From contig OX485804.1 of NCBI GenBank assembly GCA_950295325.1, forward strand, positions 67,804,033 through 67,868,032: a DNA stretch of 64,000 nt, read 5' to 3'. Under the pieces are notes generated by a model. That model was not told where the DNA came from and did no database searches. It was given only the letters and a program-made list of their open reading frames with translations. Below, one piece after another: positions 8,100-30,981 of the stretch (within the stretch, counting starts at the first letter, position 1; each line of letters starts with the position of its first letter). Source of the DNA: Polytrichum commune (lineage: Eukaryota > Streptophyta > Polytrichopsida > Polytrichales > Polytrichaceae). Made by a program: the position numbers and the translations under genes.

Positions 8100-8810
8100 A
8101 TCCAAGTGTTTATGCCAACCAAGCCGAGAAAATGTCTTCTTGACTACTCAGAGTGGTGGTGGAAGGCAATCAACACATTGAAATCCTACATACGTCCTTC
8201 TGGCTTTGTCAGCAGCTGCCATGCTAAGCTTGCAGCGAGGTTGTGTCTTATGAGCATCTTGTGGCGGTGGCCGAGTGTTACAGGCTCGCCTTCATCCTCA
8301 CGACTTCATCTTTGATACGCCAAACGAAGAGCTCGCCATGGAGTCTGGCATCCACAGAAAAGTTCGCGAGAGCCCCGAAAAGATTTAAGAGTTCCTTAAA
8401 GCTTAGCCACTTGAAGCACGTCATGTTTTGGCGAGGAGATGAGGAGTTGATCACGGACGCGACCCCAATCAATCGAGACGGTGGTGTGGGAGTTGGGCCA
8501 AGTCTTTCAGCACTCATCCACCCTGGAATGGTTTGCCGCATTCGCCAAGTTGTGGATGGAGCACCACAATGTGCGTGTTTCTGGCCATGCCGATCTCAAT
8601 ATTAATAATGTGGAGAGAAGAATATTGGAGTTCGCCAAAGGCTCGTTCCTTCCTGCTGATTGATGTCTGTCGGCACCCCACTATGGAACGGCTTTCAAAA
8701 GTCTTTCTCGTATTCCAAGGAGATTAAAGAGGAAAAACATCCGTGCAACTAAATGAAGGTCGTTATGGATTTGGAGGGGTTATCGTTGCGACCACCGTCC
8801 TGGAGTTGGA
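8100..8810 (+). pseudogene. Unidentified broken coding fragment interrupted by the MULE
   Basis: A protein-like frame covers about 8470-8660 (reading VWELGQVFQHSSTLEWFAA, then KLWMEHHNVRVSGHADLN, INNVERRILEFAKGSFLPAD). A second frame covers about 8660-8730, and a third (VQLNEGRYGFGGVIVATTV) runs from about 8740 up to the MULE edge. If the 13-kb MULE and one copy of its target duplication are ignored, this last frame stays open across the junction into 21895-21930 before a stop. I do not recognise the family. The stops and frame changes indicate a decayed gene, so the MULE may have landed in coding sequence. Confidence 0.35.
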
Positions 8811-8853
8811 GGAAGACGTTAAATACCCCCCCACGAACTTATAGGGGGCACCT
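8802..8853 (+). repeat. MULE left TIR (8811-8853) and target duplication (8802-8810)
   Basis: The target duplication ggagttgga lies immediately outside. The repeat starts ggaagacgttaaatac, followed by a run of seven C and a segment ending gggggcacct. Against the right TIR only positions 4, 9 and 13 differ. Homology fades inward after position 43. Confidence 0.92.
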
Positions 8854-9089
8854 CTGACAGGTACAGGACTGCCCGCGAAGTGACATCAGCAGTGTCCAGC
8901 CGTCCATCCACTCCACTCGACGTTCATCCACTCCACGTCCGCGTTGAAGGCGTCCTCCAAACCTGCGTAGCTAGGATTTAGTACACGACATTGACATATA
9001 CTAAGATCCTTATACATTTATACATACAATGTTATATACACAATGTTACAAGTATAGGGTACTGTATATCCAGTTCTGCATCTGCTGTT

Positions 9090-9430
9090 CTGTATACCCA
9101 GATCTGTACACCCAGACCCAGTTCTGCATATGTACATATACAGTACATGCTCTGCAGATCTGCGATGGAGTGTTCCTGTATATCTACTTATACAGAACAT
9201 TCCCTTCAGATCTGCGATGGAGTCGTTCTGCATATGTACCTATACAGAACATACTCTGCAGATCTGCAGAATGGACTTGTTCTCAATCTCTACCTATAGA
9301 TAACATGATCTGCAGATCTGTACATGGACTCGTTCTCAATATCTACCTATAGAGAACATGATCTGCAGATCTGTAAATGGACTCGTTCTCAATATCTACC
9401 TATACAGAACATGCTCTACAGGTATGCGAA
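9090..9430. repeat. MULE left array, ~52-54-bp units
   Basis: The string (tg)cagatctg recurs at about 9155, 9207, 9259, 9312 and 9366. Each unit also carries a 'tatacagaaca' or related string, a variant of the element-wide TGTNCTG motif on the minus strand. The array is probably non-coding and lies between the left TIR and the transposase gene, where a promoter would be expected. Confidence 0.75.
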
Positions 9431-9566
9431 TGGAGTGATTTTTGGATCTAGGGTTTAAGGGTCTTAGAACGCAGAGCACACATTTCTTTGCATAGTGTGT
9501 GATGGTTTAGGGTTTCGTCATTTGTGCTCGCGTTTTCAGATTTTGAGTTCTTTGCTATCCGTTTCC

Positions 9567-10110
9567 AGTTCTGCTGTTCGAAGTTGTTGGGTACTGCTCA
9601 AATTTTCTTCATCGCCTTCACCTTGCAAGGACACATCCCCTCCCTCGTTTTCAGTTCTGCTGTTCAAAGTAGTTGGGTACTGCTCAAATTTTCTTCATCG
9701 CCTTCTACTTGCATCCCCTCCCTCGTTTCCAGTTCTGCTGTTCGAAGTAGTTGGGTACTGCTCAAATCTTCTTCATCGCCTTCACCTTGCATCCCCTCCC
9801 TCGTTTCCAGTTCTGCTGTTCGAAGTAGTTGGGTACTGCTCAAATCTTCTTCATCGCCTTCACCTTGCATCCCCTCCCTCGTTTCCAGTTCTGCTGTTCG
9901 AAGTAGTTGGGTACTGCTCAAATTTTCTTCATCGCCTTCACCTTGCATCCCCTCCCTCGTTTCCAGTTCTGCTGTTCGAAGTAGTTGGGTACTGCTCAAA
10001 TTTTCTTCATCGCCTTTACCTTGCAGCCCCTCCCTCGTTTCCAGCTCTGCTGTTCGAAGTAGTTGGGTACTGCTGAAATTTTCTTCATCGCCTTCAACTT
10101 GCAAGGACAC
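9567..10110. repeat. MULE 78-bp minisatellite, seven units
   Basis: Units start at 9567, 9653, 9731, 9809, 9887, 9965 and 10043; the spacing is 78 bp except for a longer first unit. Because 78 is a multiple of three, several frames stay open on both strands (for example a 26-residue repeat containing LLRTAELETREG on the minus strand), but I regard these as a by-product of the period. Every unit contains ccag(t/c)tctgctgttc and gggtactgctcaaat, that is, relatives of the element-wide motif. Confidence 0.85.
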
Positions 10111-10269
10111 ACCCCCTCCCTCATCACATTCGTATTCATGGAAATGGCCTCCCGAAATTCTGTTTAAGAGAAGGCGACCACCCATTTCCCCCGCAATTTG
10201 TCAAATCCTCAATCCAGTGTAGAGTGCGATGATGACATCCCACAAATCGCTCCTGCAACATTTCGTGCA

Positions 10270-13200
10270 ATGCAGGCTGATCTTATAATTTCGTTGAGAG
10301 AGAGAGTTCAAAATCCTCCTCCATGTGCATTTGCTATGGACGACTTGGTGTAGACCAACCACGTTACACAAGGTCAAGGGATACAGAAAACCTCTAAGCT
10401 AGCTGTAATATTGTGGGAGAGACTTGATGATTTCATTAAAGGTGAGCAACAACATCCTCAATTTCCCTGCAATTTTACCAAGGAAATCGTCCGTGTTAAC
10501 TTGCCAAACTCCTTGCGAACACCTCGTGCACACAGTCCTGCTATTGTACTGAGGTTTGACCTACTGCCTGCTCTGAATTTGAAACCACACACTATTCATG
10601 TTCTGCTTGTCATAATGTGCTCACCAGCCAGATATCAAACTTATGCATTTCATTCTACACTCCACAATTTGCAGTACACTGTCCTTACTGTTCATGAGGG
10701 TGTATGGATTCCATGTCCTGCAAATATGTACATATAAAATTTTACATATTCAATACATGTGTTCTTCCATTGCCATTGCAGATACAGGTGCAATTTTGGT
10801 CCTGAAGATAGGAGTGATATTGTTGCGCATGATATGCAAACTCTACTGAAATCTACAAAAAAAAAAAACAGAAGATGTTGCAGAAGAAAAAGCGAGGTAA
10901 GAAGGTAATACCGGAATACGAGTCTTTCGCAGTGAGCAAATCAACCCGTCCAAAGGTTGTGCACATTGGCAAGACATATGCGGGCAACTCAAGAAAGCGA
11001 GGGTGCCAATGTTGTTTTCTTGCGAAGAAGCCCTATCTGGACCACTCGTTGTATTTGCTAATTTATGAAAATGCAGAACACTTGAATAAAGCTGGAGAAC
11101 ACTGCCACGGCACCATGCTCGGTGGATTTAGATATGCGCTCGGTGCTGGTCTTTCAACTGAAATGAAACAAAAAATTGTTGAAATGCATGCCTATGGGTT
11201 ATCCCCTGCCCAAATCATGCAACAACACACCAAAGAGGTTCGTGAGCTTGCCGTGTGTAATGGAGTGGTGATACGCGACACATTCTTGTTGCCGTGCGAC
11301 GTCAGAAACATATGTCGAAAGAGGGCTGAAGATCTGTGGGAGAAACATCCGTCCGACCCGATTAGCGTCCGTATGTGGGCAGCAGAGAATCCAGACAACG
11401 TGTTCTACTACCAAGAGCACTCGCTACTGGACCTTAATTCTCAAACACAAGACGACTCACCTTTCACCATAGGCATACAAACTGAATGGCAACTTGAAAT
11501 GATGGCAAACTTCGGTCACAACAGCGCTCTTTCCATTGACGCCACGTTTGGTACCAGCCAGACTAGGGTAAGCTAATGTCCATGTCCTTCATCTTCGTCG
11601 TCATGTTCTGTGATGATTTTCTCATACTGCCAGTCAATTTGTTTCAACCATGTTCTGCCCTATGCTAACAATGATGTTCATTGTTTCTACAGTACCCACT
11701 CTACACTGTTATGGTGTTCGATGATTGGAGAAATGGCATACCAGTGGCTTTCTTTGTCATTTCGCGGACACGTGAACAAGATCTCCGCCCAGTTCTTCAA
11801 GCGCTGCATGACAGGGTTCAAGGGTTCAAAAATGATTGGTTACCATCCTCTATTATCGTTGACAATGCTCAGGCTGAAATAAACACACTTGGGTAAGCAG
11901 TTATTGTCTGTTCTGCAACTTTTACTTTGTAGTCTCACCCCAATATATAATGCAGTGTCCTGCATTGCATATTGGTGTTAATTATTAATTCCTCACTGTT
12001 ACAGGTATTTTCCTCAGTGTTCATCCTCTGAGCTCATAATCTGTTGTTCTGTCTCTTGCGCAGCATGGTGTGGCCGCAAGCCAAAATTTTCTTGTGCTTG
12101 TGGCATGTCAGAAAGTCATGGGCAGAGAACGCCATCAAGAAAATTTCAAACGCTGCAGAACGCAACACTGTTCTTCAAATGCTCGGCGACATAATGTACG
12201 GGAAAGGTTGCAAGGTTGACGATGATCCTATCGACTGGGCCCTCGACCAACTTGGCAATATATCTAACACTCGTCCATTGGCGAGTGCGTTCATGACATA
12301 CATGAACGATGTTTGGTGAGTCAAGACACCAATGTGGTGCGTCGGAGCGCGACGGATACCACATGCAGGACAGGACACTAACGCGGCTATTGAATCCTAT
12401 CACAACAATTTGAAGAGTGTTCTAAACTCTGCCAAAGAGAGATTTGTGGGTAGGCGCATGGACTGGCTTATTTATCATCTAACGGGTGACGTTTTGACTC
12501 ATTACTGGTACAGTGTCCAATGCAAAGCATACGGATATATACGCAACAAGAAACAAGAGGGTATTGTTGCATCTGCAATTATGGGAGCCAACGATATACC
12601 TGATAGTAACGTCCTCATTTGTATGGACGAGGATGTTGCATATGTGGGGTCTGTAAACAACCGCCCGAAGGTGTGGACCATCAAATGTCCGGACTCTGAA
12701 TGGGCACAATGCAACTGCCCCGTCACCAAAGAGGGCATGATTTGCAAGCACACCATTAAAGTCTTCAAGATGCTCCACCCTGGAATTGAAGATGGTGCCA
12801 TAGTGCGTGAAGCTGGTACACGATATGGAACTCAGCGCGCCACTCCAATTGCGCGTTGCTACGCAGGACTGTCACAACAGACTACTCAAATCCATGTTCC
12901 GGAAGACATGGGCACACCAATCGAAGTTGAACCTGTGGTGCAGGACAATGTTCTGCAAATTGATGTTGTCGAAGATCACATCACTCTAACTCCTGTAGAC
13001 CCTGTGACTGTGGACGACGAACAGAACCCCTCGCAGTTCTCCTCTCAGTTTACCCAGATGGACTCCTTCCATTCGACTCCCCTTTCCCAAGAGAGTTCTT
13101 CACAACCACCTACTGCCGCAACCGCGCACGACATTTACGCCACCCTTGCACTCAAGGCTGAGCAACATCCTGTTCTACAAACTCACTTGATCGCTGGCCT

Positions 13201-13372
13201 TAGGCACATTCGGGGCAAGCAAAACCAGCTTATTGCACAAGGGGTTACACGGATGCCATTGACTCCTACGACAACCTCGTTTCCAGAGAGGGCAGGCGAC
13301 AACTCTTTAAAACGCCGGAGGAGTTTCCTGGAGTTCCCGTTGCTGAAGAGAAAGCTTTCCAGCTCCAAATGA
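10270..13372 (+). pseudogene. MULE transposase gene (SWIM-type), with lesions
   Basis: Inferred exons are about 10270-10727, 10782-11567, 11693-11892 and 12064-13372, with GT-AG introns and matching phases. The N-terminal part reads GVWIPCPAN then YRCNFGPEDRSDIVAHDM, and a Cys/His-rich stretch (KRGCQCCFLAKKPYLD, then GEHCHG) follows, as in MULE transposases. The catalytic core has Asp in SIDATFG, Asp in SIIVDNAQAE, the C-x-x-H of CLWHV, and the probable Glu in NAAIESYHNNLK. The SWIM zinc finger is CNCPVTKEGMICKH. The tail of about 190 residues is Ser/Thr/Gln-rich. Three lesions are visible: an in-frame TAG at 10351-10353, a frame change across a run of 12 A ending near 10868, and an in-frame TGA at 12317-12319. 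Both stops could arise from C-to-T change at CAG and CGA codons. The true start is unresolved. Without intact product this copy would need a transposase supplied by another element. Confidence 0.85.
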
Positions 13373-14270
13373 TAGGGTTTAAGTGTGAACAATAATCTGC
13401 ATTATCTGCATATTTGTAATGCAGTACACAGTTAGTTATTACTTGTAATAGTTACGACATACCTCAGCTCATTTTCCTTGTTGTACTGCAACTCGCCTGT
13501 CCTGCTCATTGTGTATTGTTCTGCACCATTGGTTGATCACGCGCCAGTTGTCCTGCCCATTCCCTGCTCTACACTTCTTCTACTGCACATCGACTGTTTC
13601 TGGGTTTGGTGCGTTTTCATCATGACTGCTCCCATCCCTTTCAAGTGATCCCATCTAACCACATCCCCCCCCCAACATCCCATATCACACATGATCTTCT
13701 GAAATGCCATTGTTTTATATCAAAATGGTTGCTATTGAAAGCAGTACAAATGGTCTTTGACCTTCGAGTGCTCTTTGTATCATGTTCTACGTTTTCTGTG
13801 CTGTATATCCTGTTCTGTGTATCCTGTTCTACATGACTACACGGTATTTGATGTTGTACAATGTAATGGAAACTGTACATCCATTTTACAACATGTTACA
13901 CATGTAAAAAATACAACCTAACTCTTGTCGACTACTTTCGGAGGTCCGACCTTGAGCCTTACTCTGCGATGTCATTTCGTTGGAGGTCTTCGTCGTGGTG
14001 TTGTCTGGTGTACAATTCTCACGTTCCATTCCGTGGAGTGGTGCCGTCCATTCTCTATCACATCGATCAACGCATTCCGAACTACCCTCCTTGTACGCAA
14101 TCCATCTGTCCTGCTATAGTTCAACGCGAATCCCTGCAACAACACAAACATCCTTAGAACATTTGTTGCAAAACAGCAGTACATTAATTGTGGTAGTATT
14201 ATACTTAAATTTTTTATGATCTATTACTCATCTGCGTATTCTCTATGCATGTTTAGGTGTTCGAAGAGGT
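13373..14270. other. Spacer between convergent MULE genes
   Basis: About 900 bp separates the stop codons of the two convergent genes and should hold both 3' untranslated regions. It is dense in the element motif: TGTACTG near 13483, TGTCCTG near 13498 and 13551, TGTTCTG near 13517 and 13809, cagtaca near 13742. No further gene is seen. Confidence 0.6.
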
Positions 14271-17200
14271 CTAAGACTCAATTACCTCACACAATGTAAG
14301 GGGTCTATCTCTCACGCTCTTTGTATATTCCATGATATTCTTCAACATGTAGAACCCGCAAGCCCAGCCAGAATTTTGTTGTGGCACAATTCCTTGTACC
14401 CACTGCTGGGACGAGCTAACAGCATTCCACATATCAACATCGGTATCATTGCCACTCCACGCAGCCCACAACTTTCCGAGTCTTGTTTCAATTCTGGGGT
14501 CGGAATGGAGACCTGACCCTACCAAGGAATCGAGATGGAAGAACCCGTGTTCCCCTACTATGTATACGGTCCAATGTTTCCCGCATGTATAAGAAACTAT
14601 TAAAGTGTTTATGTTCTGCGTTGGAAGGGCTCCATGCACGTCATGTATGAAGGCTACATATACCTTTAAGGTGTCTTTTTCTTGCTCCTGAAGATGCGTT
14701 AGGAGCAGGTTTAGAAGATAAGGACTGCAAACGTGACACTTTAAACTCTCAAGTTGGGGATTCAGCCACGCCCTAATCCATTCCATCATGTAGTTACTCA
14801 ACTCCCCATGATTTTGAACCAAAGGCTTAATATCCCCTTTCCACTGTAGACTCAAATTCTCACCACGATACAGAAACTCAAAACTTGCAACTTTCTTCCC
14901 ACCTGCTTCAGCAATGATGGTGTTCACAAGTTCCTCAAGTCTGTAGAACACAACCTCATGTATTAGTTTCGTAGCCAGCAACATCAAAGGACGGTATGAA
15001 TATTATGTTCTGCATTATTAACACTACATAAAAGTTACCTTCCATCCGATTTTTGTGTTGTACTGCCCAGTACGTCGTCCAAAGTTTTGTCCTCCTTAGG
15101 CTGGACAGGACGGGAGCTGACCTTCACTGGCTCAACATGTTCCTCCACCTCTGATACTACCGGGCACGCAGTGCGAGTTGAAGTGGATGCATCCTTTGTC
15201 GCCGTCGAAACTTCACCCATGTTCTGGACCGAAGTGGATGCATCCTTTGTCGCCGTCGGAACTTCACACATGTTTTGGACCTCTTTGTAGGCATCATTGA
15301 AAAGTGCGCCTATTTCGTCCGCTGCAGCACCAGCGTCCTGCGAGCATCCGGATGAGTCCAATGGTTTGTTGTGGGTGCAACCAGTAGGGGTAGTGTCGTC
15401 GAGGTTCAACCTCCGTGCTGGAGAAACCATTGTCCTGCCATCCGGAGGCCCTATTGCAAGCGTGTGAGACGGCGTCCTGTAAAACCACGGTCTTGTGTTG
15501 ACCATTTAGCAAAAGGCATAGGTGGAAGGCGCTTAATTGAACTCATAGGTTGATAAGGGTGTGGTATGAGACACGAACCTTAATGGCGCGTTCTGCATCT
15601 CAGAACTAAGCTGTGTTAGGGTTAGGTCCTGCGTGCTGATGCGGTCGATGCCATCGAAATCCATGTGCATAGGTATTGAGTCCAAACTCTCCAAACTCAT
15701 GGCCTCATGTACTTCACCCCCGAACCCCAGTGTTGATCGAGATGATTTTTCCATAGGCATCGCCACCTCTTCGAACAACAACGCCCTCGTGCAATGTAGG
15801 TCAGGGGCAATGTCATCTGTTGTTTCCTCCACTCCCAGTCCACAATTGAACAACCGCAATTGGGTGGACCTTACATATTGCAAGCTCTGTACTATATCCT
15901 TCACCCGCATCTGCACGCAGGTGCTCTTCTTGTGCAGGTCACCCAATGTCAATGTTCCTATGTCAACGTCCTCGCGGAAGACCATTGATGAACACAGGAC
16001 CTGCGCCACATATCCTTCACTTACTTTGGCCATCGTATGTTGTTATACCAGTACTGTTCTGCACTATATAATACTATATTGTTTTACAATCAATACTCAA
16101 AATGTACTGTTAGACATATCATGTTCCTATTAACTCCCAATCGTCATAGTGAAGAACATGCTAAACCCCGAGGGTGATTGTCACATGAACAGGACTCAGT
16201 ACATACCTTGCTACACTTCGCTTGGCGTTGCTCTCCGACGTCGACACTGAACCACATGTCAGCAAGCTCACTTTCACGGTGCATGCGGACCATGTCTGCG
16301 ATGGCTCGTTGCGCGATCCTACCGATGAAGGACTCCATTTTCTTAACCACAGCCATGCGCCCTGATGGTTCGTGTCCAAGCAGAGCTGCAACGTCTGTGA
16401 ACAGGACATCAATGTGTTCTGCGGCACTCTCGATGCTAGGGAAAGTACACCAACCTGTTGTAGGGATGTTCTGGGCAATTGTCGTCAAGGCGATTGAGTG
16501 GACTGTGTCTCGAGCAAGCTCCAATATGTATTCCTCGTGGAGACCTATAGTTGGGTATGAGATTGGACGACTGAAGCCCGTATGATTTCTGACCAAGTAC
16601 AAAAATGCTCTCAAAACATGCGGGCACTCATGCTCAAGCGACAGAGGCTCGGTCTTCGTGTTCGACAGTAGAACATCTGACATCTCCAGCCACTCCTGTT
16701 CTGTGTGGTCCCATGGGCCAACCTTGAAATTTTTTAGAGGCCATTTTCTGAATATCTGGTACAACGGTGACCATTTCCACTTGGACTCCTCCTCCTTCTC
16801 TTTCACGGCGCTGTCAAATTTTCGTAACGCGTCTTCGACGTGATTTCTTCTAAAATTCTCAAAGTTGACCTTGGCGGCAGCAACCTTCTCATCGTACTCC
16901 CTTTGTTCGACGCGATAATGAAGATAGTCTTTCAGGCGCCTGAGCTCTTCATACACGTTCACATCGGAATTGCTCTTAAAAACCCTGACCTGCGCCTTTA
17001 TTTTATCCAAAAATTCGCTATGTTCTCCAAGGTTCTTCTACAATGTATACACCGGCAGAACATAAAAAAACGACTCATTATAAGAACATAATATTGTACA
17101 GCCAATCTGATCTGGTAGAACATGAGATGATAGAGCACATTCAAAACTGAAGAACATGGAGTGAAACACAATACCATATTTTTGCCATACAGGTACCATT

Positions 17201-19442
17201 GCCCGAATGCAGCCCCAACGCGATAGCCAATAGAGCCATCTTCCAATTGTTTCTGGAGGTATTGCATGCAACCATCCGGGTCATCTAAGAGACTTTTTGG
17301 CACCCAGTAATCGTCAGTCTCGTTGATAAGCACATAGAGACCATCGACTGGCACTGGTTCTGGAGGCCGTGTAATCTCTTTAGGCGCATGGAAAAGAACT
17401 GTGGCCTCCTTGTACGCGTGTTGTTTGCACTCCTCCCGCGACATGGGGATAGGTTGGACAGGTTCAGTCGAGGGCTGGGCAACAACAAGGGGAATAGCAT
17501 CTTCCTGCGGAGGCTCGGGTTGCAGAACAATGTCCGTCACAGGTACTGTTTGCGGAACAATGTCTATGTCTATGGCAGGATTCAACAGTACACCATCGTG
17601 CGAAGTCATAGCTCGAATAAGTTCAGTCTGCTGAACTTGTGGGTGGATATGTTCCACACGCGACGGCAAAGGCTGCGCACAATGTCCATGCTCGTGCGTC
17701 ACAACACGGAAGTGCCCCTGGCCACTGTTCTGCAAATTTGGAGTCGCCTCCTTTGATGTGGAGTCGAACTCGCTTGGCAACGTGCCCGAATTCAGGTCCT
17801 CTTTGCTGGAGGATATACAAATCCTGCGAGATGTCTTCCAATTTTTCTTCGGTCGTCCCTTACTGGCAGAGGGTGACTTGGGTACTCTGGGCGGTCCCTT
17901 CACTGCAAGGTTTTGCACCTTGCGGGGTGGTGATGAGGGAGCGGCGTCCACACCAACACTGCGAGTTCTACAGCCAATGATAGGAACGGGCGTCCTCGTT
18001 GTTAGCTTGCGTTTTCTGGATGGAACACCATGTTCTGCATCGGCAGCCACCAATGATGTACTACCCACTGGATTGGACTCTAATTCCAGAGGCGGAGGAA
18101 ACTGCGATGGGGATTGGGAGTGCGACCCATGTGGCGAGGAAACCTTGTTGAATTTCTGTGCAATCCTATGCTTCTCTCCATGATTGCTTGGCTCCCAGGT
18201 TGGATACATCTTGAGTGGCTTCTCTCCCGTGTAGCTCTTACATAGGTTAAACATCCTATGGCAAGAGACAGTGTTCTTATCTTTGTATGACTCATTGCAA
18301 TAAATACAATTGAACATGTACCTGTTGTTGGCCATTTTAACTTTGTCCCTCGCCTGCCAATATGCCTCTACCACAAGCTCCTCATACTCATCCTCTACGT
18401 ACATACATGCACAGGTCTTTCTATTTTGTTTCATGGTACAACGGAAAACCCTAGATGTTCCATCTGGACCAGCAAACACCTGCAAAACAGTACCTATTCA
18501 ATATGCAGAACTGATGGGAGAGAAGAAAGTTCTGATAGAACTACAGGACATGTTAAATTCCTAAAACAGATGAGAGGGAAGAAAATTTTGATAGAAAAAA
18601 CAGGACATGCTAATTTCCTAAAACTGATGGGAGGGAAGAAAGTTCTCATAGAAAAAACAGGACATGTTAATTTCCTAAAACTGATGGGAGGGAAGAAAAT
18701 TGTCATAGAAAAAACAGGACATGTTCATTTCCTAAAACTGATGGGAGGGAAGAAAGTTCTGATAGAACTACAGGACATGTTAAATTCCTAAAACTGATGA
18801 GAGGGAAGAAAGTTTTGATAGAAAAAACAGGAAATGCTGATTTCCTAAAACTGATGGAAGGGAAGAAAGTTATGATAGAACTACAGGACATGTTAAATTC
18901 CTAAAACTGATGAGAGGGAAGAAAGTTTTGATAGAAAAAACAGGACATGTTAATTTCCTAAAACTGATGAGAGGGAAGAAAGTTTTGATAGAAAAAACAG
19001 GACATGTTAATTTCCTAAAACTGATGGGAGGGAAGAAAGTTCTCATACAAAAAACAGGACATGTTGATTTCCTAAAACTGATGAGAGGGAAAAAAATGCA
19101 GTGAGCAAAACAGGACCTGTTTAATACCAAAAACTGATGCTTACCCCTTGAAAGTTCTGAGAGAATTTAACATATTGTTGTGTATGCAAATATGTAACCA
19201 ACAATACTAGAAAATGGTAAGGAAAAACAACACAACAAGTTCTGTGAAGGAATACTTACCCCTTCTTGCCAGCCTTGTTTACCATGTATGCTCAAGTGGA
19301 CGAATTTGTGCCTCCCCAAGGACCTTATCAGGGCTTCATCTTCGAGGACATGCCAACCCACAGCAAGCGCCTCTGGAAGAAGTTTCGCCCCGTTCTTGTT
19401 CCTAGTCACTTTGGATGCTCCTGTTCCTTCAGTTGTCGCCAT
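14271..19442 (-). CDS. MULE-borne zinc-domain/Ulp1-type cysteine protease fusion
   Basis: Six exons join in phase: 19442-19260, 18479-17175, 17037-16207, 16000-15579, 15491-15039 and 14940-14271, giving about 1287 residues from ATG at 19442. The N-terminal 200 residues hold Cys/His clusters (CTMKQNRKTCAC; CIYC...CHRMFNLC), so a zinc-binding, possibly DNA-binding, domain is likely. A Pro/Ser-rich linker with basic stretches follows (RKRKL; KGRPKKNWK, AT-hook-like), then a charged helical region (exon 3). The last 220 residues form a C48 peptidase domain like the SUMO protease Ulp1: His in GKHWTVYI, Asp in FHLDSL, Gln-Cys in PQQNSGWACGF, in the right order and spacing. All catalytic residues are present and no stop interrupts the model. 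The exon 3/4 acceptor is the least certain; exon 4 also contains an ATG at 16033, so two genes are possible. Role in the host is unknown; deSUMOylation or regulation of the element's own chromatin are inferences. Confidence 0.8.
18520..19115. repeat. 57-bp minisatellite inside intron 1 of the Ulp1-type gene
   Basis: About ten units of 57 bp, each with 'aaaactgatg(a/g)gagggaagaaa' and 'aaacaggacatgtta', occupy most of the 780-bp first intron. Nearly every unit contains caggaca, the reverse complement of TGTCCTG. Because 57 is divisible by three, spurious open frames arise on both strands. Confidence 0.9.
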
Positions 19443-20429
19443 TAATGCGTTCGGGTATGATGATTTCAATTGTGCACAAAAAACACTCAAAACTACACTT
19501 GAAAATGAGTAAACCCTAAACCTCACACGCTTTCATAATTTGCTGGCATTAAATGTGCGATAAGGGAATGAAAAGTCTGCAAATAAGCAAAACTGCAAAC
19601 CCTAATAAAATTGTGCAGAATGTCGCTAATGAACCCGCTAATGAACTTGCTAATGTCGCTAATGAACGGCCGTGGACATAAACTGCCGCAATAATAACTG
19701 CTGCTACAACAACAACCAGGAGCAGTTATTGGACACCAATCGATTAGCACTCAAAACCCTTGGAATGCCGCAAAAACATTTCGAGTATAACCCGCAACCG
19801 CTTCGAATGTCACTAAAAACGCTTAGATTCTAACTAAGTCGACTCATCGAAATCTTGTCTACTCTCGCCGAACATACACCAGCTCATAAATTTCGCACGT
19901 TCCTACTCAAAAGGAAATCAAGCAGTTCACGAATGAAATCCTCGCAGCCCTTCACAAGCTCTTTAGAAAATGGTTAAACCTGCTGGTCTTCAACCCAATG
20001 ACGTCCAAATGATACCTAATAACCCTAAACAATCATTTTCAGTGAAATCACTACGTCATGATGGATGCAGCTATCATTAAAGAGCATGGGCGTACGACAT
20101 CCCTTGAGCAGGACAGTAGTCGCGTCGAACTGCTCTGTACAGGACTGCAGTCGCGAGGAACTGGTATCTACAGGAAGGCAGTCACGTGGAACTGCTGTGT
20201 AGAACAGAACAGCAGTGCATCAATGGCGTGGAGGTGATATGCACAGCACAGTAGTAGCGTGGAAAGTTAAATAGGGAAAATGTTCAACTTGAAGAGGCTG
20301 TCAATGTCTCCCTTGTTTTATGTTGGAGATGAGTTCGTGTTCGACAATGAAGCACTGTCTATCTTCCACTGTAATAAAATGCATATCGTCTACGTTGGAG
20401 ATGACTCCATGATCCACAACCAATAAGAA
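19443..20429. promoter_or_regulatory. Upstream region of the MULE Ulp1-type gene
   Basis: This stretch lies directly 5' of the first ATG at 19442 and must hold the promoter if the gene is expressed. Short repeats of 'gctaatg(a/t)' lie at 19625-19665. The stretch 20100-20230 is rich in caggac, cagtag and gaactg strings related to the element motif. No TATA box was assigned with confidence. Confidence 0.35.
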
Positions 20430-21540
20430 TGCATGTTCCACAAAAAACCATAGCCCATGTTCCTAAACCAAAAAGAGTGCATGTTCCCAAAAAACCAAAG
20501 TCAATTTTCGACAATCAAGCAAAGTCCATGTTCCACAATCAACCAGTGTCCATGTTCCACAATCAACCAGTGTTCATATTCTACAATCAACCAGTGTTCA
20601 TGTTCCACAATAAACCAGTGTTCATGTTCTTCAATAAACCAGTGTCCATGTTCCACAATAAACCAGTGTCCATGTTCCATAACCAAGAACATTCATGTTC
20701 CACAATCCTATATTGTGCTAATTAATGTCCCTATGTTGTGCTATTTTATGTCCCTATGTTGTGCTAATTAATGTCCCTATGTTGTGCTATTTTATGTCCC
20801 TATGTTCTGCTAATTAATGTCCCTATGTTCTGCTAATTAATGTCCCTATGATGTGCTATTTTATGTCCCTATGTTCTGCTAATTAATGTCCCTATGTTGT
20901 GCTATTTTATGTCCCTATGTTGTGCTAATTAATGTCCCTATGTTGTGCTATGTTATATCCCTCAATAAATTAATGTCCATGTTCCACAATAAACCAGTGT
21001 CTATGTTCCACAATCAACCAGTGTCCATGTTCCACAATCAACCAGTGTCCATGTTCCTAAACCCTAAACCAGTGTCCATGTTCCTAAACCCTAAACCAAT
21101 GTCCATGTTCCTAAACCTTAAACCAGTGTCCATGTTCCTAAACCCTAAACCAGTGTCCATGTTCCACAATGAACCAGTGTCCATGTTCCACAATCAACCA
21201 GTGTTCATGTTCCACAATCAACTAGTGTCTATGTTCCACAATGAACCAGTGTCCATGTTCCACAATCAACCAGTGTTCATGTTCCACAATCAACTAGTGT
21301 CCATGTTCCACAATGAACCAGTGTCCATGTTCCACAATGAACCAGTGTCCATGTTCCTCAATAAACCAGTGTCCATGTTCCATAACCAAGAACATCCATG
21401 TTCCACAATCCTATGTTGTGCTATTTTATGTCCCTATGTTGTGCTAATTAATATCCCTATGTTGTGTTAATTAATGTCCCTATGTTGTGCTATTTTATGT
21501 TCCTATGTTGTGCTATTTAATGTCCCCATGTGTGCTAATT
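20430..21540. repeat. Alternating 24-bp and 23-bp tandem arrays
   Basis: Two unit types alternate. The 24-bp unit (ccacaatcaaccagtgtccatgtt and variants) fills about 20520-20700 and 20965-21405. The 23-bp unit (tgtccctatgttgtgctaattaa or ...tatttta) fills about 20710-20960 and 21410-21545. Near 21060-21160 some units are replaced by 'ctaaaccctaaaccagtgtccatgtt', which includes the plant telomere-like string ccctaaa. The long frames across these arrays are periodic and unlikely to be genes. Confidence 0.9.
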
Positions 21541-21583
21541 AATGTCCCTATGTTCTCCCTAGCTAAGTTCAATTCAGTGTGTA

Positions 21584-21751
21584 CTGTATACGATGTCCTG
21601 TATACGATGTCCTGTGTGGGATGCACTGTATACGTAGTCCTGTATACGGGGTCATGTATCCGCTGTACTGTATACGTTGTGCTGTATACGTCGTACTGTA
21701 TCCGACGTCCTGTATATGTTGTACTGTATATGTTGTACTGTATACGCCGTA
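21584..21751. repeat. 14-bp minisatellite, 12 units, near the right TIR
   Basis: Twelve head-to-tail 14-bp units of the form ctgtatacgNNgtN follow one another, with two or three substitutions each. Unit junctions create TGTCCTG or TGTACTG repeatedly, so this array is almost pure motif. It ends 91 bp from the right TIR. Confidence 0.9.
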
Positions 21752-21842
21752 GAACTCCTGAACGCGCTGTCATCCATACGCGTCCGCGAATGACCGGCAC
21801 GACCGGTCACCCCGTCGCCGGGCTGCCCTGCACATTTTCAGC

Positions 21843-21894
21843 AGGTGCCCCCTATAAGTTCGTGGGGGGGTACTTATCGTCCTCCGGAGTTGGA
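21843..21894 (-). repeat. MULE right TIR (21843-21885) and target duplication (21886-21894)
   Basis: In reverse complement this repeat starts ggaggacgataagtac and then matches the left TIR through position 43. The second copy of ggagttgga follows directly. Confidence 0.92.
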
Positions 21895-22875: not shown

Positions 22876-24022
22876 TCGTATCTCGACGGTGTGAAAGAAT
22901 ACATGATGGGTGTATTTATTATATTAGCTTTCACAAATGGTATTGCCAGGCCGATGTGGTTTACCTTGAGATGAGGATCATTGTGGATGCCGATCGTGAC
23001 CTTCAGGAGGGGAATCAAACTTGGAGAATATTGGGTACATAAGGTAGAGGGTGCTTAAACCAACACTTAGAGGTATTTAGCCTATTTCTAGAGTCCATTT
23101 GGATTTGGATTAGCGGTATTCATAATTGGTCTAGCAAGTTGGCTTACATATAGTAGAAACAAAACCAAATAAGATTGCACATCGTATGATTATACTATGC
23201 ACACTCCAATCATTCAGAATTTGGAGTCCTTTTAAAATTTGCATGTGGGATCTTAATAAACACATATAAGCAACCCCGTAGTCCCTAGCAATGTTCTGGC
23301 ACTTGCCCAATCTAATTCCACTTTTACTCAAAATTGATTCCACGTTCTCTTGAATTGTTCTATTTTTTCATCCAAATTAGTCCCCGCATTGCATTGGAAA
23401 GATTGGATGGTTACGGTGTGTCCTTGGTACATGATTAGGTGGTGTGCATAGATGTTGGTTTTGGGTAGGGTGTTTGTTACAACACCCTCTATCTTAGACC
23501 ACCACCTTTGATAGGCGGCATTGGTGCTTCATTCATTGCAAGTTTATAGCTTAGCTATATAAGTTCACTGTGGATGTCCACATGACTCTTAACTCTAGTA
23601 TGCTCAAGGGTGAAGCATCTCTCATTCAAACCAACATTTGGGTGATGTCTATAGATATTGGATTTAAAAAAAATTGGATATATCTAAACAACTTTGATGA
23701 GAGTGTTCTTGAAGATGAAAGACTTATACTGCATAAATGTTGTTCACACTAGAAGAAAAGTTGTTAGAAATCAAGAATACATCCATACATTTGAAAGCTA
23801 AATTTAATATCTTGACATGCCAAATTTTCATGACATGTAAGCTTATGATTGTAGATACTTATGAGAAAATCATAGCAAGGTATTCTGAGCAATACCATTG
23901 TGTCATTATAGTAATTCTGAGCAATAGCCTTGGAATGAGTGTGCAACACCATTTGAACACTTGGAAAAAAACATTCGTTTGTACAAGTGGTGGCTAAAAA
24001 TATTACATATTGCACAAAAATA
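22876..24022. other. AT-rich intergenic DNA, no gene seen
   Basis: Short open frames (for example 23570-23752 and 23737-23997) have no recognisable protein features. A small hairpin occurs near 23465-23495. Nothing else stands out. Confidence 0.5.
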
Positions 24023-24050
24023 CTATAATCGACTGTGTGGTCGATTATAG
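24023..24050. repeat. 28-bp palindrome
   Basis: ctataatcga and tcgattatag form perfect 10-bp arms around an 8-base loop. Confidence 0.85.
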
Positions 24051-24224
24051 AGAAAGAGAATCACTCTGACAATATCCTAGATTTCAAAATGAATGAGTAA
24101 ATCCTCAAACCGATCCAAGAACCAATAAATTGTTTGTGGATTGAAAGTGCCCAATATCATAAGATCATACCTTATGTGTTCACATATAGACATCATTCTA
24201 AGTTTAATAATGTACGCAAATGGA

Positions 24225-24450
24225 AGGGTGAGTGTGAAGGGTGGAAAAGAGAAAAAGACTCTCATGTTCACTTTTCTCTTTTATAACTTTCACATCTCGG
24301 CTCAAATTTGAAAACTTAGAATAACAATCTTTACAATTTGCAATATGCTAACTGAATAACATAATTCCCAATCTGATTGGACGCCCAAAATTGTATGTGG
24401 ATTAGAAGTGCCCACAATAGGCCTGCGTTACCTTGCACAGGAGCATGATG
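24225..24450 (+). repeat. Dispersed repeat family, partial copy
   Basis: This stretch shares with 61690-61830 the order 'acttt(t/c)(g/a)catctc..ctca' then 'aaaacttag/aaacttggaa', and shares with 59590-59660 and 61530-61590 the 'gtggatt/gagttggaagtgcccacaatagg' end. It is one of at least seven copies in this window of an uncharacterised, apparently non-coding repeat of about 350 bp. Confidence 0.6.
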
Positions 24451-24498
24451 AAGCTTCGCATGGATTGTTGAACGCCAGATGGCGGGCTGCGAAAGAAA

Positions 24499-25735
24499 AG
24501 GAAGGCCTGACGGATGAGGCTGGATGAATTCAGATAGATGAAAACTGTTCATAGAAGAGCCCTTCCAGTGGTAAGGAATGAGGGCTGGATGAAGTCGATG
24601 AGTCTGTCGCGAATGAATGGATGAAGTGGACGAGTCTGGGAAGCAGGGGACGGAGCGATGAGGAAGGTACCCTGCTTCCCAGACTCAAGAAGCGCACAAA
24701 TGACCAACAAAACAAAGCGGCAATTGGAACCCGTGTTCAATTTCTTATACAAATAGGCAACGAAACAAGGCGGAAATTGGAGCATTTTACACACCGTGGT
24801 CTATTTGTTATGATTCAGCGGGTTAGGTATGTAGAACAGAGGTTGTAAATGCAGGAACATTAGCGTGACTGGAGATGGAACGGTACGACGAGTGTTCTGT
24901 GCAGTGGTGGTGCATTTGAGTCCATTCTGCATTCAGCGAAGAGTGACAAGGACTTGGTTGCGCCATTCTCGCTTGCTAGGGCGACAGTCGATAGTGTCAA
25001 TGCAAGGTTTCATTACGGACACCAGAAGCCCACAGACAAGCAACGAGACAATGCCGCAGACCTAACATTCTATGAGTATACCGGAACTCAATTCCTGCGA
25101 TTCAGTTGGTTAGGTACGTCGAAACCAGTTTCGGACGCAGCAATTGGCGCGGGAATCGATCGTGTCATTAACAGGTTTTCATTAATTAATCGTAATTGCG
25201 TTTTAAGAGGAGATTGTTGCTTCGTATCACGGATGAGGTCGGATGAAAGCGGATAGATGAAAATTGGTGTTGCCGGGAAGAGCACTTCCAGTGGTCAGGA
25301 ATGTGGAGTGGATGAGGCGATGAGTCCGTCGCAGAGCAGTGGATGAAGAAGATGAGTCTAGGAAGCAGGGGACGGAGCGATGAGGAGCGTCAAGCTGTGG
25401 ACACAAGAAGCACACAAACAAGCAACGAAACAATGCACCAAAGCGAGCATTCTACATACCGTGTTCAATTCTTGCGATTCAGTTGGTTAGGTATGTAGAA
25501 GCCCGTTTCCAACGCAGGAATTGGCGTGATTGGAGCTGGAACATTACGATGAGTGTTCTGTGCAGTGGTCGCGCATGTGGCTCCATTCAGTCTTCCGCAA
25601 GAGCGAGCGACAATGACTTAGTTGCGCCATTCTCGCCTGCTAGGGTGACAGTCAATAGTATCAATGCAAGGTTCCTATTGTGTAATTGTAGTTGCGCTTT
25701 GAGAGGAAATTGTGGCATCTCGTCACGGAAATGGC
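24499..25735. repeat. Tandemly repeated segment upstream of the ABC gene
   Basis: Blocks recur with offsets of about 370-720 bp: 'gatgagg..ggatgaa..gatagatgaaaa' at about 24510 and 25230; 'gcgccattctcgc(t/c)tgctagg' at about 24960 and 25625; 'cagttggttaggta' at about 25103 and 25480, with a weaker copy at 24815; 'taattg(c/t)gttgcg..tttaagagga' at about 25190 and 25685. About three diverged units of 370-720 bp lie here. No protein family was recognised. The region ends less than 1 kb before the first recognised ABC exon and may include its promoter or first exon. Confidence 0.7.
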
Positions 25736-26043
25736 GCTCGGGTGAGTCCGTGTATAGGTCGAGAATCCATATATGCCGTGGCCGAAGGCGGAGAGTGATT
25801 TCTGCGAATTCGTCAGATTCAGAGTCGTTGGTACAGGATGGAGATGACAGTACTGGAGAAGAGTCGGCCAAAGCTCGTGTTCCTCAAGACAGCCCCGAAG
25901 GCGCACTTCTACGCGAGATTGCTTCTTCTTCTTCATCGGATAAGCTACTTAACGGATGCATTGCTGAATTTTTGCCTCCATCGGAACAGAAGGTCTTTAT
26001 TGAAATGTTTTCGAGTTTTTCAGAAACACAGTGGTCATTATAA
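25483..26043 (+). other. Possible upstream exon region, unassigned open frame
   Basis: An open frame of 186 codons ends in an acidic, Ser-rich stretch (VQDGDDSTGEES, then LLREIASSSSSDKL and a C-terminal FSSFSETQWSL). Its first half lies in the upstream repeats. It might include a 5' exon of the ABC gene or be a remnant of another gene. It has no recognised domain and no obvious transit-peptide pattern, and its reading frame was not joined to the ABC exons. Confidence 0.2.
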
Positions 26044-26553
26044 CAGTGAGATACCAATCATCGTATTCAGATATTGAAGACTGCATAACAAAGTCTTTTA
26101 AATTGCCACCAGTACTATCGGTGATTTGTGACGAGGTAGCAATTCAATTCGTTCAGTAGATGTAACCTCAGGCGGTCTTTATTTCAGCCAGAGTTTGATT
26201 GGATACTTCTTGATATTTGCATTGCGGTTGATCATGATCTTGTGATGATTTAAGACACCTTTGTTACGGTACACTAGTTTAGCTGGAATTATTTGTTCAA
26301 TGAGTTCTATCAGGGAGACCTATTCAACCTATTGTAAAATCGTTTGACGTTGTAAATCGCGAAGTCGCTATTTGACAACTGTATTCCATATCGTATTAAG
26401 ATTATGTACACAATGTGGAATTTTAATGTCAGCTGGAAGGGATTGAAGGGAAACTTATTTGTTACAGGGATATGTCCGATGTGGATGGCTTCAATTTGCA
26501 AAATTATGTAGTCGTAACGCAGTCTGCAATGTTGCGGTTCTGTTTTGGGGCAG

Positions 26554-29500
26554 AGACGGGGCTCAGATTTAGCGACTCTTCTCCGAAGGTTCTGGAAGGT
26601 GGCAGCCCCATATTGGAGCTCCGAGGATAAAGTGAAGGCACGTTTATGGTTAGCAGGAGTTTTTGCACTTACTCTAGCTACCACTGGAATCAGCGTGGGC
26701 TTCAATTTTCTTGGACGAGACTTCTACAACGCCCTGGCAAGTGAGTGTGCTAGCACGATGTCTTGACTTCAGTGCCAGTGAGGAACACGCAATTACATAT
26801 TTCCTTTATGTCCTTACGGTTCACCATGTAAACCGCAGCGGGGAGAAGTATAGAGCCGGCCTCTTCGACAGGCGGAGAGAGCTGTCAGAGTCTTTTGAGA
26901 TAATGTCAGAATCCATTGGGCTACGTCTGCGTCTTGATCGGGCCAAAAGTTAACACTCCTGTAATTAGGTCTAAAGTAGGTCCTTCTAGAGTAGATGCTG
27001 CTATTCATCAGCTGGTTTCTGACTGGAGAACTTTTCTTGACAGGTAAAGATCAGGAGGAGTTTTTGAAGCAGCTCACTAAGTATTTTGCAGCTTTTATTG
27101 GAGGCATACCGGTTAGAATTCATTGGAATTTCTTACAACATTCGAGCTTGTTCAGATAATTTCCGAGCTTAGAATTGGTGTCCGGCTAATCATACTATGA
27201 ACATTTCTGACTTCGGCATCATGAACAGAAAGTTGTCCTAGTGTTGAATGTATCCTGCACAGAACACCCTAATTATGTTTGGTCATTCTGCACGTGACTT
27301 AAAATTGTTGTATACTTTTAGCAGAAACGGAAGTTAATTTGAATACCTACCGACTTTCTGAAATATACTGAAAGGTGCTTTTGACTTCATAGGTTTTTGT
27401 TCTGCGAGATTATTTCAGAGACACTTTGGCCCTCAGATGGCGTGGATGGATGACAACTCAGTACCTGGACAAGTACTTTGAAAACCGGACATTCTACAGT
27501 ATCCAGTCCCAGTCACTCATCGACAACCCTGATCAACGAATTGTTGACGATTTGAATGCATTTACGGGCAGCGCTCTAGGGTTTGCTCTCGCTTTGTTCA
27601 ATGCGACTATCAACCTTATTTCCTTCAGCGGCATTCTTTACGGGATATATCCACCATTGTTTTATGTGCTCGTTGTATATTCAGTGGGAGGCACTGCTAT
27701 TAGTGTGGCTTTAGGCAAGGTGAGCTATGCTATTTAGACTTGAATCCAATTGTGAAAGAATGAGTTCTTGATGATCTCCAGGACCACCAATGTTTGCCTT
27801 GTGTGTAAACTCCCTCAACTTTAATTTTTGAGTATCAATATTATACAAAACGTTGGGACAACAACTGAATTGCTTTGCAGGGCTTGGTAGGTTTAAATTT
27901 TATGCAAGAAAAGAAGGAGGCTGACTTTCGTTATGGATTAGTTCGAGTACGTGAAAATGCTGAGTCAATTGCTTTCTATGGTGGTGAGAGCAGCGAGATC
28001 CAGCTCCTTCTCCAGCGATTCAAGCAATCCTTTGACAATTATAGCGTAAGGATTCCTCTTTGCCGGATCTATTACTTTGGTGAGTTGCTCTGGGTGCTTT
28101 TAGCGCGTTAAAATCAAGTACTGAAGTGGATGTGCAGAAGATGGCTTCTAGTGTGATTCTCAATTAAGATGGCCGATTGTTGTTCAATACTCTTCAGTAC
28201 ATGGTTGAGTAATTTATGTGTACAATCTGTTTTGCAAAATTTCCTTGTACTCTGTTTGCAAGGCATTTCAAAAAGTGAATTATTGCTTACATGCGTAGAA
28301 TTTGTGGCTTCTGGTTGTAGACCTTCTGCCCAATATACTTATCTTCTTCACCTCTTTGGGAGTGACAGCAACTGCTAATTGCATCAAGAAACCTGGACTT
28401 CTTTACGAGCTTTTACCGCTATCTCATCCAGCTTTTACCGGCAGCAGTGGTGGCACCTCTGTACTTTGCTGGGAAGATAGAATTTGGTGTTATCAACCAA
28501 TCCTTCTCGGCGTTCAACAATGTCTTGAGCGATTTCTCTATCATTGTGTACCAATTTCAGTCACTTAGTGCTTTCTCTGCTGTAGTCGATCGACTAGGTG
28601 AGTTCCCTGCACAAGACCTGGTGGAAAATGTCTCATGTTGTAACTGTAGAGTCTGAACTTGGATACCACGAGCAGGTTGAAGAGAGCTCTAATGGGCCTT
28701 GGAGGACTTTAACGTAATTTCTTGTAATAGATGAGCCCTCCCCGAAAGTACAATGTTATATTTAGATGTATATATAAAGGATTATTTTCAAAGATAAGGA
28801 CAGCATTCTTTCAGAATCACGTCACAGGGCTGATGGTGTGATTTGTTTGTGTGACGCTCATCAGGTGAATTCACAGACATCTTAGAGGAGCAAAATGCTC
28901 CGTCTCCAGTCATAAATCAAAATGAAGGAACCAAATTGGAATCAATTCAACCTGAGGAGACGTCTCCTAGTCCTGAAGTGTCTCCAATCAAATCACGAAT
29001 CAAATTGATTGAGATCCAAGACTCAAAGAGCACAAAGAATATTGGTGCCCATCCCCTTCTCATACTTGAAAATGTGACGCTGACGACTCCTCAGTACTCT
29101 ATGACCCTCTTTAAAGATCTTTCATTACTCGTCAACAAAGGAGAGCACCTGCTAGTGAGCAATTCCTCACCCTCTCTCCTTCCCTCCCTTCCCTTAAAAG
29201 GATCTCTCTTGTGCATGTCAACTGGTGTAATTCTTAGTACATAGCTTTGCTAGATGTCCTTTCTTAGCAGTTGGCATGCATGAACAACTAGCATTGTGAT
29301 TTGCATTATTTTCACACTGAACTCTTGCTTGATTTATTCGGCAATTCATATTGGTTGCAGGTAATATGGATAATATCGTAGTTGAGGTTTGATTTCATTG
29401 GTCTTGGAAAAAATATTTGTCGCAGATTATGGGTGCAAGTGGAAGTGGAAAGACGTCCTTGCTCCGGGCTATTGCTGGACTCTGGAGATCAGGTGCAGGC

Positions 29501-30981
29501 TCTATCAAGCGCTATGTCAAATACAGAGAGGCAAAAAAAGATGGAGACAGGATTATAGCAGATAATAGTAAACTGGAGACTGATAAAACCAAAGGCTCAG
29601 ATCAGAATTTACCTGAAGAGGTGATTGGCCTGCACCTTTCCTGGAACCTTTGAGAATAAAGTATGCCTGTTCTGTGCTACCTGCGGGGTATGTAACTCTC
29701 TTGTAGAGTACGAAGAAGACGTTGACCTACCTTGTGTTTAGATGGTGTTAATTACTTAATGTTTGAGTTGGGCATGTGGGTTATGACAGGAAGATGGACA
29801 TGAAGGGAGGATCGATGGTGCCATTGTTCGTGAATCTGGAGAGATGGCCAGTGATGAAGTGTTTTTCTTGCCCCAGCGACCTTACATGGTTCTTGGCACA
29901 CTCCGACAGCAGCTGCTGTATCCTACATGGAGTGAAGAAGAAATGAACGCAGATACTGATAATGGTAAAGTCCTGAAATAAAGCTTTGCTTGTAGAAGCA
30001 TCTCTGCTTTTAAAAATTGAACTGGATTTGGGAAGATATAGAGCCATCTCTTAAGTGGTATGCAACCTAAATGGATGTGGAAACTTACTATTGCATTTGC
30101 CATCTCAACCTTAAGGCAAACCATTGTTGGACTGGATCTTTAAAAATATTTGAGGGATGAGAGGAGGTTGGACTAGCACCTTGACTTTCATAATAATCTA
30201 CAGGATGGTATTAACGAGGTTGTAGTACAGGTGAAGGTCGTTCTTGAGGATCTTCTTTTAGAGGCATATTTGTCAATGTGAAGTAGTCATGTAGGTTTGA
30301 AAAGATCAAGAGAGAATACTACGGGGCTTGGAAAATTTCTACATGGACTTACATATATAGTATTGGTACAGGTTCTTTACCTTTTGTTTCTCAAAAGAAT
30401 ACTGGAAAGTCATCAGCAAAGGAGAGGCTCGCCCCCAATGATGCAGAGCTGGTAGAGGTACTAGAACGTGTTCGGTTGGGGCACTTGATGGACCGCTGTG
30501 ATGGTCTAGATTCTTATGTAGAATGGGCTAGTGTCCTGTCTCTTGGGGAGCAGCAGCGCTTAGCATTTGCACGGCTTCTACTCTCCCGGCCTCAACTCGC
30601 CCTTATGGATGAATCAACCAGTGCACTGGACGAGGATAATGAGGTAATTGGGTTTCTTCAATCCTGCTTAGCTTTATCTTGGGAAGAGCACAATGCCATC
30701 AGAGTTGATATGGAGTCTAAATGGTGCGCTTTACTTCAATATGCAAACCAAGTTTTCCATTTGTCACATCATTAACGTATTTGTCCCATTCAAATCCGCA
30801 GATAAGTCTCTATACAGCGTTGCAAGGAGCAGGTGTGACATTTATAAGTGTAGGTCATCGCAACAGCTTGCGCTGCTTTCATACACACATTCTTCAATTT
30901 CGAGAACCCAATCGGGGTAGTGATACGTGTACTTGGACAGTACAAAGACTGGCTGAAAGTGATTCTCCATCAAGGAGATGA
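26554..30981 (+). CDS. ABCD2: ABCD2-type (chloroplast) ABC half-transporter
   Basis: Ten exons join in phase: 26554-26740, 27044-27111, 27393-27719, 27881-28045, 28369-28597, 28865-29154, 29426-29620, 29790-29964, 30417-30643 and 30802-30981 (stop), about 680 residues. The transmembrane half includes LAGVFALTLATTGISVGFNF and then NPDQRIVDDL and EKKEADFRYGLVR, which are characteristic of ABCD transporters; the order closely follows Arabidopsis ABCD2 as I remember it. The nucleotide-binding half has Walker A GASGSGKTS, Q-loop FFLPQRPYM, signature LSLGEQQR, Walker B LALMDES and the H-loop in SVGHRN. It is a half-transporter (one membrane domain, one ATPase domain) expected to dimerise in the inner envelope membrane of plastids; the substrate is unknown. 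The N-terminal exon with the transit peptide was not found. The first listed exon opens right after an AG at 26553, so one or more upstream exons probably lie in 24500-26500. No lesion seen. Confidence 0.88.

Follow-up and report, generated by a model that had tools for sequence, protein, structure and literature searches.

The window analysed in this study is a stretch of 64,000 nucleotides from the Polytrichum commune genome (67.80-67.87 Mb of contig C2; genome of 408 Mb). It contains a Mutator-like element (MULE) at 8811-21885 (13,075 bp), which is complete with both ends present. The element is a MULE with terminal inverted repeats (TIRs) of 43 bp, a 9-bp target site duplication (TSD), the MURA gene on the plus strand and a convergent second gene on the minus strand, here called U (Table 1). 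Among 11 copies of the family including that of the window, a 9-bp TSD was found at the window element and at four others; these four of the ten sister copies have other identical TSDs, namely GTAGAATGT, CTCTCTCAA, ATTGTATAC and CAACTAGCA. A short word, TGT(A/C/T)CTG, recurs on both strands throughout the element, and related families in the same genome carry other words. This study deals with that word and with the protein that may read it.

A sequence-only reading of the element had put the number of matches at about 60. We counted 65 exact matches to TGT[ACT]CTG/CAG[AGT]ACA in the element versus 12 in the other 50,925 bp of the window, and the positions cited in that reading were right within a few bases (16055 for 16051). 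The matches are sparse in the flanks (0.24 per kb), as it had stated, and they occur in introns (11.2 per kb), tandem arrays (8.0), intergenic spacers (4.8) and exons (2.75), as it had also stated; in these densities the exon limits are approximate and a likely 5' MURA exon at about 10354-10560 is counted as intergenic. When each array was cut to one unit, 45 matches were left, whereas 300 dinucleotide shuffles averaged 5.9 and never exceeded 14, so the enrichment stands under the shuffling check that the reading had proposed. Each of the first 13 kb holds 3-8 matches, the final 75-bp bin holds none, and the TIR itself has no TGTHCTG. Nine of the 12 matches outside the element lie within 8 kb to its right (23292-30938), which may reflect chance or the remains of a decayed relative.

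TGTGCTG, the remaining variant of the heptamer, shows no enrichment, with 3 copies inside the element and 4 in the flanks. The most over-represented heptamers relative to the window flanks were GCAGAAC, GCAGGAC, CAGAACA and CAGGACA, and the stronger core is GT[ACT]CTGC, that is, GCAG[AGT]AC(A). A small expectation-maximisation model of the motif shape gave sites too degenerate at the mixture cap and was kept only as a hint of a TG..ACA shape. Arrays contain 23 of the 65 matches and exons contain 17. In MURA exons there are 5 matches versus 1.5 in synonymous-codon shuffles (as many in 10 of 1000), and in U exons 12 versus 3.3 (as many in 0 of 1000). The arrays with TGTHCTG have unit lengths of 53, 57, 31, 23 and 14 bp; their units differ in length and sequence and have only the word in common. 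The 24-bp arrays contain neither TGTHCTG nor the core words GTTCTGC and GTACTGC.

When the genome was queried with a section of MURA, 150 of 398 candidates were scored, so the 150 MURA places obtained (identity 46-100%) are a lower bound; they include the window and its close copies. Ten 10-kb stretches (L029-L038) and three 5-kb stretches (L039-L041) spanning the identity range were read in addition to the window, and heptamers were counted in distinct sequence contexts only, each against 20 dinucleotide shuffles. Six motif classes were found in these 14 elements: GCAG(A/G/T)AC, GCAGAAC, GAAGGAC (with GAATGAC), GAAGAAC, GCACTAC and (C/T)GTTAC. In all 14 elements the highest-ranking heptamer equals or overlaps the class word, three of the rows being weak. 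GCAGAAC occurs 18 times in the window versus 1.7 in shuffles, 26 versus 1.6 in L029 and 27 versus 1.1 in L034. GAAGGAC occurs 15, 17, 20, 19 and 12 times in L030, L035, L031, L036 and L033, respectively (0.9-1.6 in shuffles), and GAATGAC stands within the printed top nine heptamers of L030, L036 and L033 (10, 10 and 11). GAAGAAC characterises L032 (16 versus 1.3), GCACTAC both L037 (21 versus 1.0) and L039 (7 versus 0.5), and ATGTTAC both L040 (12 versus 0.7) and L041 (11 versus 0.4). L038 is weaker, with GTTACAA (10 versus 1.3) and ATGTTAC (11 versus 1.8). The top p values of the weak rows (L033, 4.1e-8; L038, 1.5e-6; L039, 7.3e-7) fall inside the range of shuffle minima over all loci (1.4e-8 to 7.9e-6); each is under the minimum of its own shuffles, and relatives of the same class back them. 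Two 13-kb flank controls gave best p values of 2.3e-6 and 4.9e-5, the former slightly under its own 20-shuffle minimum of 7.1e-6 and inside the same all-loci range. The pairs L029/L034, L030/L035 and L031/L036 (97.6-99% identical), L038/L040 (96%) and L037/L039 (92%) are not independent.

The cross-family matrix is nearly diagonal. The main word of a class reaches 14-54 occurrences per 10 kb in families of that class and mostly stays at 0-8 in the others, the exceptions being GAAGAAC in L031 and L036 and GCAG(G/T)AC in L037 and L039 (10-11 each). GCAGAAC is common to the window, L029 and L034, and the window class adds GCAG(G/T)AC (19.9 versus 4.5-5.7 per 10 kb). For this matrix L038 was trimmed to 5,500 nt with an insert resembling a long interspersed nuclear element (LINE) left out, and the element starts are rough for L033, L037 and L038. 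By eye, L038:6890-10000 (minus strand) is a LINE-like coding stretch that apparently interrupts the MULE copy. The sequence-only reading had held that related elements lacking the motif would speak against its proposal. Of the 11 copies of the window family, that of the window included, the eight with both ends placed carry 42-65 matches (the right end was not found in the other 3), whereas diverged families carry their own variants instead. Such variation of the word among relatives suggests that a family uses it as a private address tag by which to recognise its own copies.

The classes are compatible with single clades on a MURA tree (16 rows) and a U tree (12 rows), with support for the GAAGGAC clade of 0.70 and 0.94, respectively. 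The words were also counted in stretches that do not align between families of the same class, with expectation from base composition and arrays left uncollapsed. GAAGGAC occurs 21 times in 6,521 nt of L031 that do not align to L033 and 14 times in 6,545 nt of L033 that do not align to L031 (0.7 expected in each), and GCAGAAC 15 times in 6,356 nt of the window element that do not align to L029 (0.6 expected). The weakest of ten such comparisons, L033 versus L030, gave 5 in 3,677 nt with 0.4 expected. Since the words persist in unalignable DNA of same-class families, they are likely to be more than inherited repeats.

The terminal repeats were compared across families by their left ends only. 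Those of L029, L030 and L033 agree with the window TIR at 35, 34 and 36 of 43 positions, although these families differ from the window in motif. L031 and L032 agree at 25 and 26 positions (ungapped), and L037 and L038 at 23 and 21, where the placement is without confidence.

The C-terminal exon of U matches Peptidase_C48/Ulp1 (PF02902, E=1.1e-5, over its cut-off), and the active-site H, D and C lie inside the alignment with 6dg4_A, a solved Ulp1-like protease (E=0.024). The N-terminus has a C-x2-C-x13-H-x5-C pattern that is largely kept among homologues, and the central domain is all-helix in the structure model and has no convincing Pfam match. In other assemblies, 49 U homologues with 34-77% identity to the window exons were seen, so the gene occurs beyond the family of this genome. 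U changes faster than MURA: between the window and L029, identity is 43-69% for U pieces and 69-89% for MURA pieces, and between the window and L031 it is 33-61% and 46-80%, respectively. A convergent U within 20 kb 3' of MURA was found at 72 of 150 places, whereas random placement gave 0.4 on average and at most 3 (104 of 141 U rows, short partial rows left out, and all 150 MURA rows). By group of places, in order, U was paired at 25 of 30, 31 of 35, 15 of 36 and 1 of 49, with medians of 3.6-4.2 kb. A remote U-like convergent ORF (open reading frame) lies beside MURA in L040 and L041 (profile probability 62%, E 7.7e-5); no Ulp1 exon was seen by eye between it and MURA, and the C48 profile gave no match there. 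The protease part may thus be dispensable for keeping the motif. Within the clade, the protease may have been either acquired or lost.

In MURA, the D, D, E residues and CxCx(n)CxH were seen by eye in the translations, and the SWIM match was below the cut-off (E=0.23). The in-frame stop of exon 3 is found only in the window copy; over the short stretch compared, ten sisters have no stop there and 3 of these 10 have one elsewhere. Young copies differ in their MURA stop codons, which are of C>T or G>A type wherever other copies hint at the original base; this accords with methylation of cytosines in the copies. Among the 11 copies, C>T changes numbered 264 on 807 CHG sites, 181 on 780 CG sites and 330 on 2,875 CHH sites. 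This excess on CHG and CG fits past CG/CHG methylation of the plant type.

From the observed enrichment, class switching, persistence in unalignable DNA, similar terminal repeats and position of U beside MURA, we infer binding, a role of U as reader and an anti-silencing effect. We consider it moderately probable that the motif is a binding site of an element-encoded DNA-binding protein, most likely U, which would mark its own family in the manner of VANC and the VANDAL elements. U would consist of an N-terminal CCHC/BED-like finger, a variable linker, a helical central domain and, usually, a C-terminal Ulp1-type protease. Dozens of sites in introns, spacers and expandable arrays would allow it to locate members of its own family and to act on them, probably by releasing them from host silencing as VANC does for VANDAL. 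The copies show the mutational traces that CG and CHG methylation leaves. Protein and motif would have changed jointly as families diverged, so that a single genome would hold at least six private addresses. Judged from sequence, U is most likely the reader; the alternative candidate is the fast-changing tail of MURA. The sequence-only reading had proposed VANC-like self-recognition, and this is partly supported: the enrichment, the spread over introns, spacers and unrelated arrays and, most of all, the switching between families while TIRs stay alike are as that idea predicts.

Several points weigh against this proposal. Motif columns vary like anagram columns among the 11 recent copies (1.78% versus 1.79%; 154 of 300 control sets were at or below the motif value). 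Current purifying selection is thus not seen, and constraint is visible only at the family scale. An earlier comparison of 10 copies with all other columns had given 2.6% versus 4.2%; the difference vanished once arrays were excluded and composition was matched, and it was dropped. Exons are also enriched in the motif, unlike the sites of VANC21. Any DNA-binding fold in U is putative, since its finger is a weak zf-BED match (E=0.15) and its N-terminal model is poor (predicted local distance difference test, pLDDT, 54.8). At the sequence-profile level, the exon pieces of U match neither DUF1985 nor DUF287 in Pfam up to E=1. Among the most distant 49 MURA places the window query paired a single one with U, because that query is too distant from them. 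U is inherited with the element, so a U tree that tracks the motif is no proof that U reads it.

The motif might instead be bound by the transposase or an accessory factor for transposition, in synapsis or copy recognition, with silencing uninvolved, as TnpA binds the subterminal repeats of CACTA elements. Element proteins with family-specific repeated motifs are known in CACTA elements (PMC2613891), and the C-terminal tail of MURA also diverges fast (35-46% identity to the GAAGGAC families versus 70-78% for the exon 3 core). However, the sites are not clustered subterminally as in CACTA elements; they are spread evenly along 13 kb, introns and exons included, and the TIR itself holds none, the first match lying 275 bp inside the left end. 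Terminal repeats that stay alike while the motif switches also argue against a motif that is a side effect of how the transposase recognises the ends, and we regard a role in transposition as unlikely.

A word without function, spread by tandem duplication and gene conversion within an element and then inherited by families, would agree with the 23 matches in arrays and with the lack of extra motif conservation among recent copies. It appears improbable, since 45 matches are left once arrays are collapsed, array units of unlike length and sequence share only the word, exon matches exceed the expectation from codon choice, and the words persist where same-class families cannot be aligned. Slightly less probable still are signals read by the host, in splicing, transcription or silencing by a host factor that homes on each family, with no element protein involved. 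TGCAG is similar to the plant 3' splice site, and this likeness, like the highest density being that of introns, fits such signals. Yet the word occurs on both strands and in spacers, arrays and exons, and a single host factor would hardly account for six different words within the same host.

Table 1. Features of the MULE in the window and of its remote relatives. Positions are those of the window unless a locus is given.
Feature	Position	Strand	Remark
TSD left, 9 bp	8802..8810		GGAGTTGGA; read from sequence, matched to right copy
TIR left, 43 bp	8811..8853	+	
TGT(A/C/T)CTG sites, n=65	9086..21740		both strands; first 275 bp inside left end, last 151 bp from right end
53-bp array	9121..9434		with motif copies
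78-bp array	9560..10103		units with GTTCTGC and GTACTGC
Possible 5' MURA exon	10354..10560	+	limits uncertain; by eye, like upstream MURA stretch of L037
MURA coding stretch 1	10833..11566	+	exon limits approximate
MURA exon 2	11692..11892	+	
MURA exon 3	12064..13372	+	in-frame stop 12317-12319 in window copy
U C-terminal exon	14271..14986	-	Ulp1/C48 domain
U exon 5	15041..15503	-	limits approximate
U exon 4	15582..16032	-	limits approximate
U exon 3	16206..17038	-	helical central domain
U exon 2	17179..18477	-	CCHC/BED-like finger and variable linker
57-bp array in U intron 1	18509..19139		CAGGACA x9 in ~11 units
U exon 1	19262..19441	-	exon limits approximate
31-bp array	20109..20201		one motif match
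24-bp and 23-bp arrays	20408..21554		three motif matches, all in a 23-bp array
14-bp array	21580..21751		units TGTACTG/TGTCCTG
TIR right, 43 bp	21843..21885	-	93% complementary to left
TSD right, 9 bp	21886..21894		GGAGTTGGA; read from sequence, matched to left copy
Remote U-like ORFs	L040:270-1235; L041:491-1213		

Elsewhere in the window, large ORFs at 43947-46773 (minus strand), one of which matches DUF7869 (E=4.7e-43), have the appearance of another mobile-element gene. A 229-bp tandem repeat of 4.9 copies (49057-50183) lies upstream of an ORF at 51016-51561 that was called integrase-like by eye; no Pfam family matched it up to E=0.01.

The closest known systems are VANC21/VANDAL21 and VANC6/VANDAL6 of Arabidopsis, which are likewise MULEs with a short, element-specific motif in non-coding DNA and arrays. 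VANC21 binds YAGTATTAY and the targets of VANC6 carry AGTTGTCC/AGTTGTAC, both motifs being found in tandem repeats, and VANA is far more conserved than VANC (PMC5735166; PMC10398659 gives the same account of the system). As in VANDALs, the motif studied here is short, enriched and often placed in tandem repeats, related families have different motifs, and the second gene is less conserved than the transposase. The words themselves differ from those of VANDALs, being GCAG(A/G/T)AC, GAAGGAC, GAAGAAC, GCACTAC and (C/T)GTTAC. The TIRs of VANDALs are absent or short and degenerate, with some exceptions (PMC6446971), whereas the window element has TIRs of 43 bp at 93%. Binding and hypomethylation have been demonstrated for VANC, whereas the present system is known from sequence only. 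VANC contains DUF1985 and DUF287, which were not found in U. These domains were also absent among the listed matches of the members of the U alignments (29 and 20 sequences; sequence-profile level). A genome-wide DUF1985 search gave zero matches, as it also did in control genomes. We do not file U as VANC, since neither DUF1985 nor DUF287 was found and since the motif of the window family occurs in exons as well as in non-coding DNA.

The sequence-only reading had spoken of a different protein from VANC. The lack of a DUF1985 or DUF287 match supports this in part, but U has an Ulp1 domain as some VANC genes, called KIU, do (PMC13317346), and U may be a remote homologue. According to that review, KIU-carrying VANDALs recognise the motifs of other KIU-carrying VANDALs. 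Ulp1-bearing KIU/Kaonashi MULEs occur in Arabidopsis, melon, rice and grapevine. U differs from KIU in its N-terminal CCHC/BED-like finger and in a helical central domain lacking a convincing Pfam match, and the present elements differ in having TIRs and in that their most distant class (L040, L041) apparently has no Ulp1 exon between U and MURA by eye. En/Spm-type CACTA elements also combine a DNA-binding protein, TnpA, with family-specific repeated motifs (PMC2613891), a role that is inferred for the protein here; their motifs lie near the termini, whereas those of the window element lie along its whole length. Judged from titles and abstract openings, no published counterpart was found beyond the Arabidopsis studies and review articles. 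Another paper reportedly deals with the rapid co-evolution of anti-silencing systems in Mu-like transposons and may describe related motif switching in eudicots. More tentatively than binding by U itself, we suggest a separately evolved MULE self-address. An Ulp1-type, finger-bearing protein unrelated to VANC would read words some 9 bp long, for the most part of the form TG(C/A)A(N)(N)ACA, and the families of a single genome would form a graded series along which protein and address switched together at least five times. If so, this series could show the protein-word recognition code directly.

The wider question is by what means a transposon can overcome silencing by its host and still leave the remainder of the genome correctly regulated. 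The prior record from Arabidopsis VANDALs comprises two motif specificities (PMC5735166). In the present genome at least six private motif classes were found within a single clade whose members share their gene layout and have related terminal repeats. For this reason the switching of specificity is traceable stepwise (GCAG to GAAG, GAAGG to GAAGA) and testable with protein-motif pairs. If U proves unrelated to VANC, the system would be a convergent solution; if U proves a remote relative of VANC, the system would be older and wider than the eudicot record.

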